NCBI GenBank assembly: GCA_025399215.1
Contig: MU621183.1
Coordinates: 1-59,376, forward strand
Source: Globomyces pollinis-pini
Lineage: Eukaryota > Chytridiomycota > Chytridiomycetes > Rhizophydiales > Globomycetaceae
Direction: 5' to 3'
DNA: 59,376 nt
The translations under genes were made by a program, and so were the position numbers. This document shows positions 10,839 to 59,320 of the stretch, one piece after another. The notes beneath the pieces are model-generated. The model had not been told where the DNA came from. It searched no databases and saw nothing but the letters and a program-made list of their open reading frames with translations. How positions within the stretch are numbered: the first letter of the stretch is position 1; every line of letters starts with the position of its first letter.

Positions 10839-12278
10839 TTAAAGAGCGAAAATAGCTAAAGCGGTTATAAAAAGGAAGCCAATTGAAGACTTGTCATTTG
10901 CAGAGCTGATTATTGGTAGAGTGTCTGAATAACCGGCGGTCTGAGTTGGGAGTGCACTATCATATCCATTAGGAGTATTAATAGGCAAGCTTGAGCCATA
11001 ACCACCTGAACCAATTGGCAATGAATCGGAACCTGTTGGGATTGGAGCGTCGCCATAAGCAGAACCACCATTGGTACCAGTACTCAAGTTTTCTGATGAT
11101 GCTGGAGCAGGTACATCGTCATCACAATCCTCTTCAGGTGGGTTTACACCAGTACTTAAATTTTCAGTAGAGCCAGCATTTGGAGCTGGAGCACCAGGCG
11201 ATGGAGCAGGGACATCATCTTCTTCACAATCTTCATCATAGATGGTGTCTACTGGAGTGTTTGGTACTGGAGCAGGAGCTTCTGGTTGTCCCTGTGGTTG
11301 GGATTGGAAACCACCTTGTTCATAGGAAGGAACTTGTGCTGGTGAATTGTTATTGGACCCTTCAGGTGATGATGGAGTAGCAGGATTAGGGGAAGGGTTG
11401 TTTGGTTGAGCTTGGTTATTATTTGGGACTGGGACGTTATCTTGAGGTTTGTTGTACCCTCCATTACCAGATGGAGTAGTTGGTTTAACACTTTCAGTGG
11501 TGGTTGGGGCAACACTTGTTGGGGCTACAGTAGTAGCAGTGGTACTGACAATTACTGGAGCAACACTGGTGTTTGTTGGCTTGGAGTAACCACCAGCCAC
11601 CGTGGTGGTGGTAGCAGTTACTGGCGCAACAGTAGTAACTACAACTGGTGCGTTGGTAGTAACTACAACGGGTACGTTGGAGGTAACAACAACCGGAGCA
11701 TTTGAAGTGACCACAGGTTTGTTGTATCCTTGGTTACCGGCAGGTGGGAGCTGTACTGGGATTGGGTTTGAGTCAGTTTTTACAGGGACAATGTATCCGT
11801 TTCCTGGAGCAGGATTAGGTGCAACCGGTTTTGGTTGCTCAGCAACTGGTTTCGGTTGTTCAACAACTGGCTTTGGTTGCTCAGCAACTGGCTTTGGTTG
11901 TTCAGCAACTGGCTTTGGTTGTTCAGCAACTGGCTTTGGTTGTTCAGCAACTGGCTTTGGTTGTTCAGCAACTGGCTTTGGTTGTTCAGCAACTGGCTTT
12001 GGTTGTTCAGCAACTGGCTTTGGTTGTTCAGCAACTGGCTTTGGTTGTTCAGCAACTGGCTTTGGTTGTTCAGCAACTGGCTTTGGTTGTTCAGCTACTG
12101 GCTTTGGTTGTTCAGCTACTGGTTGTGGTTTTGTCTCCACAGGAGCAACTGACTTTGGTTCGACTACTACTGGCTTTACAACATCGACAGGTTTAGGTTG
12201 TTCTGGTGTGGTTGATCCATAATTGTATCCTTGAGGAGCGGCAAGGGAAAGGGAAATTAAAAAAATAACTGGCAACAT
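10839..12278 (-). CDS. Repetitive GPI-anchored-type cell-surface protein (AEQPKPV repeats), 479 aa
   Basis: The protein has a signal peptide (MLPVIFLISLSLAAP), then about 15 tandem heptapeptides AEQPKPV (residues about 50-155), then long Thr/Val- and Pro/Asn-rich mucin-like stretches. Two acidic Cys motifs follow (YDEDCEEDDVPAP, EEDCDDDVPAP). It ends in a hydrophobic tail (SIGFLFITALAIFAL) behind a small-residue region, typical of a GPI signal. It is probably a wall or cell-coat protein. A related acidic Cys motif recurs in the short secreted protein at 47837. No intron is needed. Confidence 0.75.
   Translation of the reverse strand: MLPVIFLISLSLAAPQGYNYGSTTPEQPKPVDVVKPVVVEPKSVAPVETKPQPVAEQPKPVAEQPKPVAEQPKPVAEQPKPVAEQPKPVAEQPKPVAEQPKPVAEQPKPVAEQPKPVAEQPKPVAEQPKPVAEQPKPVVEQPKPVAEQPKPVAPNPAPGNGYIVPVKTDSNPIPVQLPPAGNQGYNKPVVTSNAPVVVTSNVPVVVTTNAPVVVTTVAPVTATTTTVAGGYSKPTNTSVAPVIVSTTATTVAPTSVAPTTTESVKPTTPSGNGGYNKPQDNVPVPNNNQAQPNNPSPNPATPSSPEGSNNNSPAQVPSYEQGGFQSQPQGQPEAPAPVPNTPVDTIYDEDCEEDDVPAPSPGAPAPNAGSTENLSTGVNPPEEDCDDDVPAPASSENLSTGTNGGSAYGDAPIPTGSDSLPIGSGGYGSSLPINTPNGYDSALPTQTAGYSDTLPIISSANDKSSIGFLFITALAIFAL
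11821..12126. repeat. 21-bp minisatellite encoding AEQPKPV
   Basis: About 15 head-to-tail 21-bp units lie inside the surface-protein gene. Most are near-identical, with divergence at both ends (VEQPKPV, TKPQPV), the usual pattern of a coding repeat that expands and contracts internally. The long open frames on the opposite strand here are by-products of the repeat. Confidence 0.95.
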
Positions 12279-13065
12279 CTTATCTACTGGATTATGAAGA
12301 TATCTATTGATACTCTCAGTATTTATTCAACCAAAGGGCGTTTTGTTTGGAAAGCCCAATGATGGCTCAGTCGTTTTACCCTAAGCGCCTACCCTCGAGA
12401 CCTTTGGTAAATCGGAACGAAGATCCATAATGTCTATAATGAAACTTGATGAGCAATGAGCTTGAATATCACATTCAATTGAATATCTCATTTTCATACC
12501 CTCGATTGTCATATTGTACAATGACTCTTAATACCTTTGAACACAAACTTTTCATTCCATTTTTTATTTACCCAAACCCATGAAATTGAGCCAACCTCAT
12601 GAACCATGCTAGCATAAGACAGTGAAACAACGGTTATAATCATCTATTTGGCGGGTAGTGGTAGTATACGTGAATGTGATTTGACAGCTGGTCGATGATT
12701 TCTTCAATTCGTGTTTCTTTCTATTGTACTTTGTGACTTTGTGTTCATCAAGCGAAACTCAATATATGTGTGCTGTTTGGGTGATCGTTTAGCTTGAGAC
12801 TCTTTGAGCCTGGCCGACAACGTTGAAGCAGATCTCTGTACAGGTGTGATATGGTTGGCATAGTAGGTGATTTACATCGAAAGAAGCTTAATTCCAAATT
12901 ATATCAGCGTTCAACGCAACCAAAGAATATAATGAAACTTGTTTAATAAAAATTGCAGTTTAATATGGCAGTGTGAGTAATTTCTAGATTGTCACTTTGA
13001 ATTGGTTCAATATTTAAATAAAAATGAACGACGCGCGTATTCGTTCACTTTTTGACAACTGCTAA
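12279..13065. other. Divergent intergenic region (787 bp)
   Basis: The region lies between the repeat-protein start (minus) and the CCDC146 start (plus). I found no convincing open frame and no tRNA-like cloverleaf. It probably carries two promoters. Confidence 0.5.
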
Positions 13066-16505: not shown

Positions 16506-18039
16506 GCTCAGTAATTCGATGGACATACTTGCCACTCATTCTCATGCACTACGATCTCCATCTGCTATTGGCAATCATGTGCAAGCTTGCTTTTCCCCTG
16601 ATGCGACCTTGCTCTTTGTCCCAACTTCAGTTTTAGCTACTGATCACTCTGGTATTTGACTCCTGTTAATCTCCTTTAGGTATCAACTCATTTCTGACTT
16701 CTAGCCATTCATCAAATACTTGCTAATTATGCTAAACAATCTCACACCATCCTCAAGGAACAGGTACCGTTTGACATTAACTTTAGATCTTAAACACCAT
16801 TTCTACCAATCACTCTATCGTTCAAGAGTCTATTCTCACCATTCACCATATTGACTTTATCGACTGGTTACTTCCTGGAGTCAAACCTACCAAAAAAGAA
16901 ATCGTTCTCCCTTTAGTATTCTGTTAATAATCACTAACTAAAGGTACAAATAATTTTATCATTAAAACACAGGTATTTGATATTTTTAGTTAACTCAAAG
17001 GTCACTTTTTACACTCTTAATGATGACCTCCTCATCTCATCCAAAAAGTTATATTGGGATCAAGCATCCGTTTTGCGACAAGTTGCAGTTTTACCTAGAT
17101 CACTTTATTGCAAGGCTAATGCTTCCGAAGTTGTCTTGCCCATTAGCGGTGCAAACATTGGTGAAACTTTACTCGAAGTATCAAATATCATTTGCGGTAT
17201 GTCTCTTATCACTCACTTGAAAAGATCACAATGATAAGGTTTTACTTGAACAAGATAGATTATCCGCCATTGATTTAGCGAATGATCAACCGGAATCTTT
17301 TAATCAAGGCACTGATTCCTATGATAATCAAAATATTAATTCAAAGTATCAATCTCGTTTAGCTGAAAAATCGTCGGGTATTTTTGATGATGGCCAACCC
17401 CATTACCAGAAACCTTCCACTCGTGTTATGGAACGCCCTGGTGGAAAATCGAGTGATATTTTTGGACCTCCAGAACCTACTCAACCTTCAAATCGTAGGG
17501 ATCCAAACCGTAGTTCTATAAATGATGAACCCACTCCAACCTATCGTCGTCAACATAGCTCCGCTGGTAACTCCTCTGTCTTTTCGGCTGATGAACCCAC
17601 CATTCCTTCCGCTGGTCAACGTCGTGATCCAAATCGTCGATCCATCTCAGATGAAAGTGAAGAAGGTCACCGCCCAGGTAATTGTTTTGTTATTCATTCT
17701 TTTATAGGTAATCGTTCGAGCATCAATTCATATCAGTAGGTCAGCGTCAATTCTCTGGTCAAAATACAAAGTCCCAATTTACTCTTGGTAACATCGAAGA
17801 AGGATCCATTGCGCAGAATTCTGGAAAACGCATGTGGCAAGGCAGCAACTCCTCTACCATTGATTTTGGAGGCGAGCCAACACACGCTCGTGTAGGGCTT
17901 ACTCGCCGTGATCCAAATGCTCAATCCGAGCAACAAACCTCTCGCCCTTCTAGTCGGTAAATTCTCTTGAATCAATTTCTTATCTTTGTTTAGTGTGCTA
18001 GCTAATCCAGGCGGGCGTAGCAGCTTTTCCTTTGCTTGA
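16506..18039 (+). CDS. SnoaL/NTF2-fold protein fused to HN1/Jupiter-like repeat tail
   Basis: ATG at 16506 and an in-frame ATG at 16521 are both possible. The N-terminal half reads like a fungal SnoaL-like NTF2 domain: AIHQILANYAKQSHTILKEQ, ESILTIHHIDFIDWLLPGVK and KLYWDQASVLRQVAVLP. The C-terminal half repeats motifs such as RPGGKSSDIFG, GNSSVFSADEP, NSSTIDFGGEP and RRDPN, and ends RVLANPGGRSSFSFA*, like the PGG.SS..FG boxes of HN1/Jupiter microtubule-associated proteins. One intron is 21 nt (16923-16943). Two introns are abutting pairs: 16652-16679 + 16680-16704, and 17678-17707 + 17708-17739. The fusion is inferred from continuous phase across introns. Confidence 0.7.
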
Positions 18040-42987: not shown

Positions 42988-44491
42988 ATGAGAGCTGCAA
43001 AACCTATTAATGTCTTTATTTTCCGTAGAGATTTACGATTGTTCGATAATACTGCCTTGATTGATCTAATCCACTCGGCAAGAAATTCGCAGAACATACT
43101 ACCAATCTTTATATTCAACCCTGATCAGATTGACCAAACTCAAAATCCCTATTTTGGTCATAAGTGTGTACGATTCATGTTGGAATGCTTGGATGAATTG
43201 TCTGTCGATATAAAGAAATTGGGAGGTCAATTAGTTTACTTTAATGACAATCAACTCACCGTATTGGAGTCTATTTCACAGTACTATGAAATAAATTCAG
43301 TATTGTTCAACAGGGATGTTACTCCTTATGCTATCAAGAGAGATAGAGAGATCTTTGATTGGTGTGCCGGACGAAATATTCATTGCGCGTCAAGTGAAGA
43401 CTATACCTTGCATGCGATGGACACAATTAAAACTAAGTCGAACTCATTTTCTCTGGTATTTACACCATTCAGACGAGAATGTGCCAATTTTCCTGTTAGA
43501 ATACCATGGAACATCCCCGCTAATCAACGCTCATTTGTACCACCAAATGAAATTAAAAGAGAATTAAACAACATTTCTGATATCAACCATTTTGCGGATA
43601 AACATGAAGATGCTGTCGATTTGTATGGAGGCCGGAAAGCAGCATTACAGATTTTGGATAAAATTGAAAAAGGAGCATACAAAAACTACGAAGAAGAACG
43701 GAACTCATTATATGAAGAAAAAACAACACAGCTTGCGGCGTATTTGAAGTTTGGATGTGTCAGTGCAAGAGAATGTTACTATTCCCTCTTAAAAGCTTAC
43801 GGCCAATCTCATGGTTTAATGAGTCAATTGTATTGGCGAGAATTCTATTTTCATATGACTTTCCAGTTTCCAACGTTACTGGCGTCCCAAGTCACCGATA
43901 ATCCAAATGAACCCCTAAAGTCTCGTATGAAAAACATTAATTGGACATACAACAAAGAGCACTGGGATTTATGGTGCATTGGTAAAACCGGATTTCCTAT
44001 CGTTGATGCTGCGTAAGAAATAAGTATTTTCTAACTCTTAGGATGAGGCAAATGAATGAAACAGGATATATGAATAATAGAGCGAGAATGATTGTTGCAA
44101 TGTTCTTGACCAAAAACCTCCATATTGATTGGCGTGAAGGGGAAAAATATTTCGCTACCAAGCTGATTGATTATGATGTAAGATTTAAAGTTATTTATGA
44201 TAGCCATGTCAGAATAATGGTGGATGGCAGTGGAGTGCCTCTACTGGTGTAGACGGCCAACCTTATAGGATTTTCAATCCTTGGCTACAGGCTAAACAGC
44301 ATGATCCAAAATGTGAATACATCAAACGTTGGGTTCCTGAGCTTTGGATGGTACCAATATCTGATCTTCTAAGTTGGGATAATGAGAAGGTGAGGAATAA
44401 ATACCTTAGACAGGGTATTTACACGACACCTATAGTTGATCATGGTAAGACTGCAGCATATGCAAAAGATATGTTGAAGGGCATTCGTTAA
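42988..44491 (+). CDS. Class I CPD photolyase, copy 1
   Basis: It starts [20 protein letters not shown], the photolyase N-terminal Rossmann domain. FAD-domain blocks are [40 protein letters not shown] + [36 protein letters not shown] and [18 protein letters not shown]. It ends AKDMLKGIR*. Introns are 44013-44041 (29 nt) and 44178-44203 (26 nt). The family repairs cyclobutane pyrimidine dimers using light; NNGGWQW and the GFP.VDA..RQ..ETG.M..R.RM block are the flavin pocket. A close paralogue follows directly downstream. The length (about 480 aa) is normal. Confidence 0.93.
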
Positions 44492-44880: not shown

Positions 44881-46386
44881 ATGCAAGCTGCAAAACAAAT
44901 CAACGTATTCATTTTTCGCAGGGATTTACGATTGTTCGATAATACGGCTTTGATTGACCTAATCAATCTCTCTGCAAGAAATGCTCAGAAAATACTACCA
45001 ATCTTTATATTCAATCCTGATCAGATTGACCAAACTCAAAATCCTTATTTTGGTCATAAATGTGTACGATTCATGCTGGAATGTTTGGATGAATTAGCGG
45101 TCGATATTAAGAAGTTAGGAGGTCAATTGGTTTACTTCAATGACAATCAACTCACAGTTTTGGAGTCTATTTCACAGCAATATGACATCAATTCAGTATC
45201 ATTTAACATGGATGTTACTCCATATGCTGTCAAAAGAGATAAAGAGATTGTTGATTGGTGTGCGGGACGAAATATTTCATGCACATCAAGTGAAGATTAT
45301 ACCTTATATGCAATGAATGAAATCAAAACCAAAACTAAATCGATCTACCAAGTGTTTACACCATTTAGACGTGAATGCGCTAATTTTCCTGTTCGAAAAC
45401 CAGTTGATATTCCTGCTATTCCTCTCTTCTTCTTATCACCAAAGGACATTAAAAAAGAATTAAACAATATTCCCGATATCAATCATTTTGCAGAGAAACA
45501 TGAAGACGAGGTTGCATTGTATGGAGGCAGGAAAGTGGCATTGCGAATTTTGGACAAAATTGAAAAAGGGGTGTATAAAAACTATGAAGAAGAACGGAAC
45601 TCAATGGCTGAAGAGAAAACAACACAGCTTGCTGCCTATCTGAAGTTTGGATGCATCAGTGCAAGAGAATTTTATTATTCAATTTTAAAGGCACATAATC
45701 AGTCACATACTTTGATGAGTCAATTGCATTGGCGAGAGTTTTATTTTCATTTGACATATGGGTTTCCAGCATTATTAGCATCCCAAGTGACAGCCAATCC
45801 AAATGAAACCCTCAAGTCTCGCATGTCAGATGTTAATTGGAAATACAATGAAGAACATTGGAATTTATGGTGTATTGGTGAAACCGGATTTCCTATCGTT
45901 GATGCAGGGTAAATTATTTGTTATCGTAATTGTTAGAATGAGACAATTGAATGAGACAGGAAACATGCATAACAGGGCAAGAATGATTGTTTCAATGTTC
46001 CTGACCAAAAACCTCCATATTGATTGGCGCGAAGGGGAAAAGTATTTCGCAACCAAGCTGATTGATTATGATGTAAGAGTTAAAATAATTAATGATAGCC
46101 ATGTCAGAATAATGGTGGATGGCAGTGGAGTGCTTCTACTGGTGTAGATACGCAACCATATAGAATCTTCAATTGCTGGCTACAAGCTAAACGCTACGAT
46201 CCGAATTGTGAATACATCAAACGTTGGGTTCCTGAACTTTCCAAAGTACCAACCTCTGATCTTTTGAAATGGGACAATGAGAAAGTCAGGAATAAATACT
46301 TGAAAAACAATATGTATCCTCCACCTATAGTAGAACATGCGGAAAGCGCAGCCTATGCAAAGGATATGTTAAAGGGTATTCATTAA
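44881..46386 (+). CDS. Class I CPD photolyase, copy 2
   Basis: It starts [20 protein letters not shown] and is collinear with copy 1, including both intron positions (45909-45936, 28 nt; 46073-46098, 26 nt). Key blocks are kept: [43 protein letters not shown] (from the CCATGTCAG junction) and [19 protein letters not shown]. Protein identity with copy 1 is high, with clusters of difference around residues 140-195. One small change is FNCWLQAK where copy 1 has FNPWLQAK. Both copies look functional. Confidence 0.93.
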
Positions 46387-57668: not shown

Positions 57669-59320
57669 ATGGTAACAGTCCCATACCATCACCATTACAA
57701 TCTGAACTACTCATAACAATCACTTACGATCACCATACTAACAATTGATAGGTTACCCAGAAAGAAAAGATTGATCATGTATCCCTTTCTTTCTCACTCT
57801 AGTTCATCTCAATCACTGGTGCTAATAAATCCACTGCCACTAAAGTACTTAAAGAAGCTGCTTGGAATGTAGAATTGGCTGTTGACTCGTATTTTGATAA
57901 TAACTCAAATAATATCCCTACTCCCATTGCTAATCACTCCGCTTACGATCGATTCTTTGATACTTACAAAGGTTCTTTATTCTCATTAACATTCCAGACC
58001 CACAATCGGATCTCATAGAAGTCGACGGCACTGAACAATTACTCAGTATAACTTTCTATCACTCAATTTAGATGACTTGGATTTGGATCCTGCTAGTGTT
58101 GTCACCCTCGTCTTGGCTTGGCATATGAAATGTCAAAATATGTGTGAATTCACTCGTGATGGTAATTTCTATCATGACTCATTCAAAGGTTGGAGAGATG
58201 GTTGTAAAGAACTTGAGTACGTTCTTCACTTTCGCTTACTTTCAGTGTCGATTCTGTTGCCTCTCTAAAAGCTAAAATCCCATTTATGGAAGAAGAACTC
58301 AAGGATGATGCTAAGGCGAAACTCATTTATCTCTTTACCTTTCAGTTTGCTAGGCTGGAAAATCAACGTGCATTGGGTAATGAATCTCTTCTCGTAAACT
58401 CTTTTACAAATTTCATATCAACTCTCTATTCTATAACAGTAACACTTACAATATTAAACACAATCATAACCATCACAATCACAAAAATGGAAATATTTTT
58501 ACATAATGCAACAACACTTCAGCTTCTCCGTAGAAATCAAAGCATGTTGACAATTTCAAAATGCATTTCGGCAACATCACAATATGTAGTAGACAACCAT
58601 TTATCGACATCACCAAATCAAATCCATTTTCATTTCAACTGCACAACATGCGATTATACATTAGACAACATTAATACATCTTTTTCTTGCGTTTGATTGC
58701 AATTAATTAGACCTTAATTGTTCTTATTTCATTTACCCAACAAATTCGCTACCGTTTACCACACATTATTAATTGTACATAGGTTTTGAAACTGCAATTG
58801 CATTCTGGGACTTGTTGTTAGTTGGTCGATTCAAGTATTTAGAATTATGGAAAAAGTTTTTAACGGTTGGAATATTCTATAACTAACGATAGGTACATTA
58901 ATGATCATTTATTTTTAGGTATTGAGGTTTTTGATGGCTGATTTGTTATAGGTATCATGGATGATAGCATTTAATGACTAGGTAACCTTGTAATATCATA
59001 ACCATTAGGTATCAACTCAATAAGTAATAGCTTACCATAGGTATAATCACATATATGCTTACCAAACAGGAACACCATGGTAAAGCTCCAACATCAGTTT
59101 TAATATGTAGGCAAAGCCATTACCAAAGATACCTGGAATTTGGTAAAATCACAAAACTAACGTCTAGTTTTGGGATTTCATTACTACCAGCTCACCGGAT
59201 TTTGCCGATCATGATACCGATGGTATTAGTGAAGATATTAAATATCTAGGGGCTTGGCCAGTTTTGATTGATAGCTTTGTTGAGTACTATAATGAAAATA
59301 AAGATTCTATGGCGCATTAA
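57669..59320 (+). CDS. DCN1: DCN1 (DCUN1D) cullin-neddylation factor
   Basis: The likely first exon is the single codon ATG (57669), followed by an intron to 57751. The UBA part reads VTQKEKIDHFISITGANKS and VLKEAAWNVELAVDSYF. The potentiating-neddylation domain reads LDPASVVTLVLAWHMKCQNM, CEFTRDGNFYHDSFKGW, IPFMEEELKDDAKAKLIYLF, ETAIAFWDLLLVGRFKYLEL, EHHGKAITKDTWNLF and AWPVLIDSFVEYYNE. It acts as an E3-like factor for Nedd8 transfer to cullins. Two introns are exceptional: 58377-58782 (406 nt), and 58866-59069, which resolves into seven abutting GT-AG units. Confidence 0.92.
58866..59069 (+). other. Array of seven abutting mini-introns in DCN1
   Basis: Between codons for ...KKFLT and EHHGK the sequence divides exactly into GT...AG units with no bases between them: 58866-58892, 58893-58918, 58919-58951, 58952-58981, 58982-59008, 59009-59040 and 59041-59069 (27, 26, 33, 30, 27, 32 and 29 nt). 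Each unit has the size of a normal intron in this window, and several have a branch-like CTAAC, TTAATG, CTGAT or ATAACC near the 3' end. The next intron follows after only 10 exonic bases (59080-59110). Confidence 0.75.

Follow-up and report, generated by a model that had tools for sequence, protein, structure and literature searches.

Probable back-to-back mini-introns in the DCN1 gene of the chytrid Globomyces pollinis-pini, and similar arrays in other genes

The stretch of DNA analysed here, referred to as the window, comprises positions 1 to 59,376 of contig MU621183.1 of the chytrid Globomyces pollinis-pini (Chytridiomycota, Rhizophydiales), and carries on its plus strand, at about 57.7-59.3 kb, a DCN1 gene. 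Removal of the introns gives a 264-residue protein (its N-terminus being uncertain), in which a domain search recognises UBA-like and Cullin_binding domains, and whose alignment with human DCN1L1 covers residues 2-255 (PDB 8or2_F, E 3e-57). The closest relative is P0001 of the chytrid Globomyces sp. JEL0801, with 96% identity over aligned columns; this deposited model is without the exons flanking the array described below. Six single, ordinary mini-introns are predicted in the gene (Table 1), together with one long intron of another class that is free of AGGT and is without counterpart in the aligned homologues, except for four residues (NESL) in P0001. The reading frame of this long intron is open to position 58696, and long introns and mini-introns coexist here.

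A further intron, of 204 nt, had been read in an earlier note, made from the letters of the sequence, as seven GT...AG units placed end to end without remainder, and its coordinates, length and parse all proved exact. AG|GT is present at all six internal junctions, as had also been claimed, to which it must be added that the intron holds seven AGGT and not six; the extra one lies within unit 3, so that a second exact parse exists, with units of 27, 34, 25, 30, 27, 32 and 29 nt. Tiling of this kind arose in none of 100,000 dinucleotide-preserving shuffles of the intron, and in 144 of 100,000 trials when the seven AGGT were placed randomly. The claim that the whole stretch must be removed is borne out by alignment to human DCN1L1, in which KFLT followed directly by EHHGKAITKDTWNL is continuous against KFLLEHHKRSIPKDTWNL, and nothing within 58866-59069 can therefore be coding; the exons ending in LWKKFLT and beginning with EHHGKAITKDTWNL are also continuous in the aligned chytrid homologues, P0001 excepted. 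Branch-like motifs had been noticed before several acceptors, and units 1, 3 and 4 do score well, with units 2, 5, 6 and 7 scoring weakly. Units 6 and 7 have a core identity of 0.69. A search for a second copy of the array returned a single match, the array itself, and an Rfam search of the window gave no match at gathering score.

Table 1. Positions of the DCN1 features and of the nine arrays compared with homologues (positions without a prefix are those of the window)
Feature	Position	Strand	Size	Basis
DCN1 single ordinary mini-intron	57779..57802	plus	24 nt	gene model
DCN1 single ordinary mini-intron	57972..57997	plus	26 nt	gene model
DCN1 single ordinary mini-intron	58046..58071	plus	26 nt	gene model
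DCN1 single ordinary mini-intron	58217..58245	plus	29 nt	gene model
DCN1 long intron of another class, AGGT-free	58377..58782	plus	406 nt	gene model, homologues
DCN1 exon upstream of array (FETAIAFWDLLLVGRFKYLELWKKFLT)	58783..58865	plus		ungapped alignment to human DCN1L1
DCN1 array	58866-59069	plus	7 units	homology-checked
Unit 1, weak donor GTTGGA, branch-like CTAAC	58866..58892	plus	27 nt	array parse
Unit 2	58893..58918	plus	26 nt	array parse
Unit 3, branch-like CTGAT, extra AGGT at 58925-58928	58919..58951	plus	33 nt	array parse
Unit 4, branch-like TTAAT	58952..58981	plus	30 nt	array parse
Unit 5	58982..59008	plus	27 nt	array parse
Unit 6, GCTTACCA in 3' part common with unit 7	59009..59040	plus	32 nt	array parse
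Unit 7, acceptor CAG	59041..59069	plus	29 nt	array parse
DCN1 exon downstream of array, start of EHHG	59070..59079	plus	10 nt	gene model and human DCN1L1 alignment
DCN1 single ordinary mini-intron	59080..59110	plus	31 nt	gene model
DCN1 single ordinary mini-intron	59143..59167	plus	25 nt	gene model
PHYHD1 array	L028:5085-5369		10 units	homology-checked
MARK-type kinase array	L038:1315-1679	minus	12 units	homology-checked
CLK kinase array	C1:20692-20829	minus	5 units	homology-checked
PEX10-like array	L035:1416-1619	minus	7 units	homology-checked
MCM8 array	L027:6066-6228		6 units	homology-checked
Mitochondrial carrier array	L036:1454-1614		6 units	Pfam alone
HP1-like chromodomain protein array	L037:150-261		4 units	homology-checked
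RuvB-like 2 array	L040:1503-1556	minus	2 units	homology-checked

Units of 26-33 nt had been taken as the normal intron size here, and the introns of two gene models agree with this. The first model, run without a length preference, places 322 of its 539 predicted introns at 20-40 nt, with a peak at 25-29, and the single introns of DCN1 itself are of 24-31 nt. On long gaps this model performs badly: among 64 gaps flanked by good coding sequence, 43 were of 18-40 nt and 21 exceeded that; one of the 21 tiled (0.02 expected), and several proved to be skipped exons. From the second model, in which short introns are favoured, come 730 single introns; the 719 of 22-38 nt have a mean of 28.4 nt, compared to a mean of 28.6 nt (range 24-36) for the units of the checked arrays.

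The DCN1 array is real and is not unique, being one of many such places. The second gene model contains arrays of at least two units in 28 gene models, of which nine with recognisable proteins were checked by homology (Table 1). These nine arrays hold 59 units and 50 internal junctions, with 2-12 units each, span 54-365 nt and all tile without remainder. AG|GT is present at 50/50 of the internal junctions, although arrays were found through intact AGGT, which makes the intact junctions partly a matter of construction. A biased pattern, favouring TAG and GTAC, led to the carrier, PEX10-like, MARK-type kinase and RuvB-like 2 loci, so that internal TAG and GTAC in those four loci are partly selected. 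The array junctions are covered by Pfam domains, at the very edge in MCM8 and RuvB-like 2, and are free of gaps against solved structures in DCN1, the MARK-type kinase, PHYHD1, RuvB-like 2, CLK, the HP1-like protein and the PEX10-like protein; in MCM8 the structure alignment is interrupted by a gap of one residue, three residues short of the junction, and an NCBIfam search on the mitochondrial carrier gave no match. In the 12-unit kinase array, the Asp codon of the DFG motif is the one that is split (VKIT|DFGLSN). For CLK, MCM8 and the PEX10-like gene, the second gene model had retained parts of the arrays as coding sequence, and these were taken out on the array parse before comparison. This model recovers six of the seven DCN1 units and three of the five CLK units. 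In the window together with 160 kb of C1, its predictions comprise 510 single mini-introns, 66 long introns and, as chains, 7 pairs, 3 triples and one of six units. Outside the homology-checked set, convincing-looking candidate arrays are seen in a CHMP-like (L025) and a phospholipase-like (L026) gene, and the gene model predicts arrays of two, three and two units in one predicted gene of the window (16652-16704, 16916-17000 and 17678-17736).

Arrays also appear to trouble public annotation. The public G. pollinis-pini phytanoyl-CoA dioxygenase P0015 (BC833DRAFT_47563) is 100% identical to our C12 gene model over aligned columns, and differs from it in a longer N-terminus, in a 19-residue insert at the PHYHD1 array, and in nine near-C-terminal residues that the C12 model wrongly keeps. 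The 19 extra residues are exactly array units 4 and 8, the retention of which as coding sequence is probably an annotation error. The two public models that could be compared, viz. P0001 for JEL0801 DCN1 and P0015 for PHYHD1, thus err at or beside an array.

A check set beforehand concerned an excess of AG|GT over composition at this spacing genome-wide, and such an excess was found. In 18.5 Mb, AGGT-AGGT-AGGT triplets at distances of 25-36 occur 943 times, against 196 at control distances of 40-51, the latter including some coding repeats or the RYDDR-type micro-exon repeat described below. Reversed-pattern triplets number 1952 at mini-intron spacing and 1841 at control spacing; this reversed control exceeds the signal owing to the abundance of TGGA, twice that of AGGT (2643 vs 1274 on both strands of 219 kb, i.e. 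the window plus 160 kb of C1, which were not chosen for arrays). On a change of spacing the reversed pattern hardly shifts, whereas AGGT drops nearly fivefold, and it is the spacing control, not the reversed-pattern control, that counts for AGGT triplets. A strict pattern, TAGGTAT twice and then TAGG, is found 44 times at mini-intron spacing and once at longer spacing, with reversed controls of 3 and 1, respectively. Another pattern, the biased one that led to the four loci named above, gave 17 matches vs 5 reversed, and an early fixed-length pattern 22 vs 85 reversed, a comparison made uninformative by the difference in word abundance.

The first 100 of the 943 triplets form 154 units in 54 chains (any coding chains being left in), 37 of them with two units and 17 with three to nine, the counts for three to nine units being 7, 3, 3, 1, 0, 1 and 2. 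Forty-six of these 100 listed triplets extend into a further unit, compared to about 3.5% expected by our own arithmetic from the AGGT density in the 219 kb. By proportion, we estimate roughly 160 chains of at least three AGGT-bounded units in the genome, some coding chains among them. Within the 219 kb, AGGT pairs peak at a distance of 24-35 (93 vs about 44 expected), and AGGT comes first among 116 four-mers of similar abundance in chains of at least four (4 vs 0.13 expected, one of the four being a coding repeat), the runner-up having 3 vs 0.77 expected. The margin in this sample is thin: chains of at least three AGGT number 9 at mini-intron spacing vs 4, 7, 8 and 7 at four other spacings, and those of at least four number 4 at 23-38 (one coding), 2 at 39-54 (a class containing the RYDDR-type micro-exon repeat and a coding repeat), 0 at 55-70, 1 at 71-86 and 1 at 87-102. 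Some AGGT chains were rejected as coding repeats, those at C1:106154-106298 and at window 11682-11743, and are outside the checked set. On the minus strand of the window, at 10841-12326, a predicted protein with many KPVAEQP tandem repeats is encoded.

An independent view of the units is offered by the branch motif YTRAY, which was used by neither gene model nor by the AGGT pattern. It is present in 51.6% of single introns vs 19% after shuffling, with its A mostly at the seventh to tenth base from the end. In the AGGT-defined chains of at least three units, drawn from the first 100 of the 943 triplets, 40 of the 80 units contain it (shuffle mean 15.1, maximum 27 in 500), and 32 of 68 do so once neighbour-like units are excluded (mean 12.2, maximum 23 in 2000). 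The five checked arrays free of the biased pattern have it in 17 of 32 units (mean 6.1, maximum 15 in 5000); their last units have YTRAY in one case of five and the looser YTNAY in four of five. GTA is found in the same five arrays at 26 of 27 later donors and at two of five first donors (p 0.008), by which first donors seem weaker than later ones, the numbers being small, and the acceptors (22/27 vs 3/5, p 0.30) do not differ significantly. This trend of internal vs outer sites was first seen on nine arrays and is restated on five, four having come from the pattern that favours TAG and GTAC. At donor position 4, array units differ from single introns in having A in 31% vs 53% and C in 23% vs 8%.

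These signals bear on the possibility that each array is simply one long intron, of which the first GT and the last AG alone are used, the internal AG|GT being ignored relics of tandem duplication. One-step removal of the whole stretch yields the right protein, and the 406-nt intron in the same gene makes such removal of 204 nt possible; the second model moreover predicts 86 introns of 46-864 nt, some share of which are false. The sequence leans against ignored relics, however, in that branch motifs remain in 32 of 68 diverged units and that internal sites, judged by the GTA donors of the five unbiased arrays, are not weaker than the first. Introns of 44-76 nt, the length expected if a junction were lost, are few in the second model (13 against 730 single introns, the model giving long introns a low prior), but make up 43 of 539 in the first by histogram count, many of these 43 probably being skipped exons. 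Near-AGGT junctions at one mismatch number 4 vs 2.6 expected in the 44-76 nt introns of the second model. We consider removal as one long intron to be rather unlikely, and the branch motifs surviving in diverged units suggest that short steps may be needed or favoured.

Considering how the arrays came about, repeated insertion at an intron boundary had been one of two earlier proposals, the other being that the units are spliced singly and serially, and the first is to be refined, in that the origins which can be read are local tandem duplications of whole units, seen as identical or similar neighbours. Units 2 and 3 of the PHYHD1 array are identical and its units 1-6 are alike, C168:4853-4920 consists of two identical units, and close unit copies lie in C68:15928-16039 and C165:23218-23307. 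Adjacent-copy similarity is seen in PHYHD1, the PEX10-like gene, C68 and C168, and is absent in most arrays. Among 100 neighbouring unit pairs, 11 are above the 99% null of unrelated pairs and six above the 99.9% null, and the 89 that fall within the 99% null indicate that most neighbours have diverged. Near-identical repeats such as those of PHYHD1, C68 and C168 might also be taken for ordinary minisatellites, i.e. intronic tandem repeats that happen to hold AGGT and whose spacing and signals have no splicing meaning. The 89 diverged pairs, an array period equal to the length of single introns, the first rank of AGGT among the 116 four-mers (one of its four chains being coding), and the start and stop of all nine checked arrays at exon boundaries set by homology all count against this explanation, which we regard as very improbable.

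A different source of similar units would be mobile, introner-like mini-introns that were independently inserted again and again at AG|GT junctions, rather than duplicated locally. Most neighbouring units are unrelated in sequence, as this would predict, and a comparison of single introns from about 0.32 Mb and of the 154 array units gave weak cross-matches, array units of different contigs being slightly more alike than shuffles (score of at least 7 in 0.24% vs 0.08% of pairs, and of at least 9 in 0.075% vs 0.019%). Among 727 single introns, 35 pairs were similar at E 0.01 or better. The cross-contig excess could, however, be explained by shared splice motifs, the 15 of the 35 single-intron matches listed are 13-25 nt long with mostly T/A-rich ends, the strongest similarities are those between neighbours, and 24-36 nt would be a small size for a transposon. 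Insertion of this kind appears improbable to us, and the sequences favour local duplication over dispersal.

The extent of the duplicated segment may differ between loci. Upstream of the CLK array (C1:21683-21981, minus strand; L011), seven introns of 25-30 nt are interspersed with six micro-exons, each of 15 nt, that code RYDDR-type repeats; the micro-exons have a mean identity of 90%, and the intron cores 55%, compared to 53% for shuffled cores. The duplicated segment here would be an intron plus 15 coding bases, of which the introns diverged and the exons stayed alike, and in the arrays with zero-length exons it would be the intron alone. In the window itself, tandem photolyase/cryptochrome-like genes (42988-44491 and 44881-46385, named by eye) have two shared intron positions, at one of which the introns have diverged and at the other of which they are identical at 22/26 positions (counted by eye); given this second match, the pair was dropped as proof of fast intron divergence.

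Known recursive splicing subdivides very long introns, with examples from Drosophila. The chytrid arrays resemble, in sequence, recursive splicing through zero-length exons or ratchet points, where AG|GT is acceptor and then donor and removal is stepwise (PMC5126111), with the difference that here whole introns of 54-365 nt would be nothing but 24-36-nt units, up to 12 of them. Dual-specific splice sites, at which AGGT is usable as donor or acceptor, form a tandem array in human UBC, which shares with the chytrid arrays both this arrangement of AGGT sites and a link to tandem repeats (PMC10809524). In UBC, the sites lie at the borders of coding ubiquitin repeats and produce isoforms (PMC10809524), whereas the chytrid units are non-coding and must all be removed; the sequence of the chytrid junctions would allow both uses. 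Stwintrons and the complex introns of Lipomyces are likewise composed of several fungal U2 introns, and are removed by consecutive reactions (PMC7138796, PMC9024468, PMC5639578, PMC12403724), as is proposed for the chytrid arrays. A stwintron is, however, one intron nested in another, and strict ones are not exactly removable from the outer sites alone (PMC7138796); a strict stwintron is ruled out here, as the units lie end to end and are not nested, and splicing from the outermost GT to the outermost AG would be just as exact.

Intron gain by tandem duplication of segments holding AGGT has been described in fission yeast, with 24-bp AGGT repeats, and in potato (PMC4974935), as well as in Cryptococcus (PMC2395259), where CNN00420 contains exon+intron repeats. 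In these cases, as is proposed for the chytrid arrays, introns are created or multiplied when a segment bounded by AGGT is duplicated in tandem, but they concern single genes and exon-derived or exon+intron units (PMC4974935, PMC2395259), as opposed to complete introns joined without an intervening exon, in many genes. Introners likewise provide a route for introns to multiply in a genome, by copies inserted in many genes (PMC9860276), whereas the clear copies in the chytrid are neighbours. As far as compared, and in the excerpts of these sources, the known relatives do not describe genome-wide chains of many back-to-back introns, and no report of such a class was found among the matches listed in the open-access literature, a scope to which subscription journals and preprint servers are largely external.

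The explanation that we consider likely is that the 204-nt DCN1 sequence is a polymer of seven mini-introns, the units of which would be removed stepwise via internal sites, and that such arrays grow by tandem duplication. Each unit would bring its own donor, branch-point region and acceptor, with each AG|GT ending one unit as acceptor and opening the following one as donor, and the spliceosome, working here mostly on introns of about 24-36 nt, would remove one or a few units per step. Any donor used with any downstream acceptor would give either a shorter chain with intact AG|GT or completed removal. Because every splicing route would end in one mRNA, an extra unit would be nearly neutral, and chains could therefore lengthen. 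Units probably duplicate by slippage, or by unequal exchange, involving the AGG(T) copies often found at the two ends of an intron, and would later diverge save for the splice signals, which selection would keep. With somewhat less assurance, we lean towards polymeric introns being a distinct class of gene architecture, present by estimate in more than 100 places and multiplying like a minisatellite, the links of which would be kept by selection since the spliceosome works best at 24-36 nt.

Few live cases bear on the question of how introns arise, or of what makes certain lineages rich in them. If the proposed explanation is true, it would provide a path to new introns that copies an intron already in place and requires no new insertion site. 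A single genome would show successive stages of intron multiplication, between neighbours that are still identical and units that have wholly diverged. Recursive splicing, so far associated chiefly with very long introns, would then operate at the smallest intron scale, and the arrays of 2 to 12 units would be a natural test of intron definition, i.e. of how a spliceosome for introns of ~28 nt chooses among many equivalent sites. The arrays suggest that introns could multiply like a tandem repeat and be excised piecewise, in several housekeeping genes.
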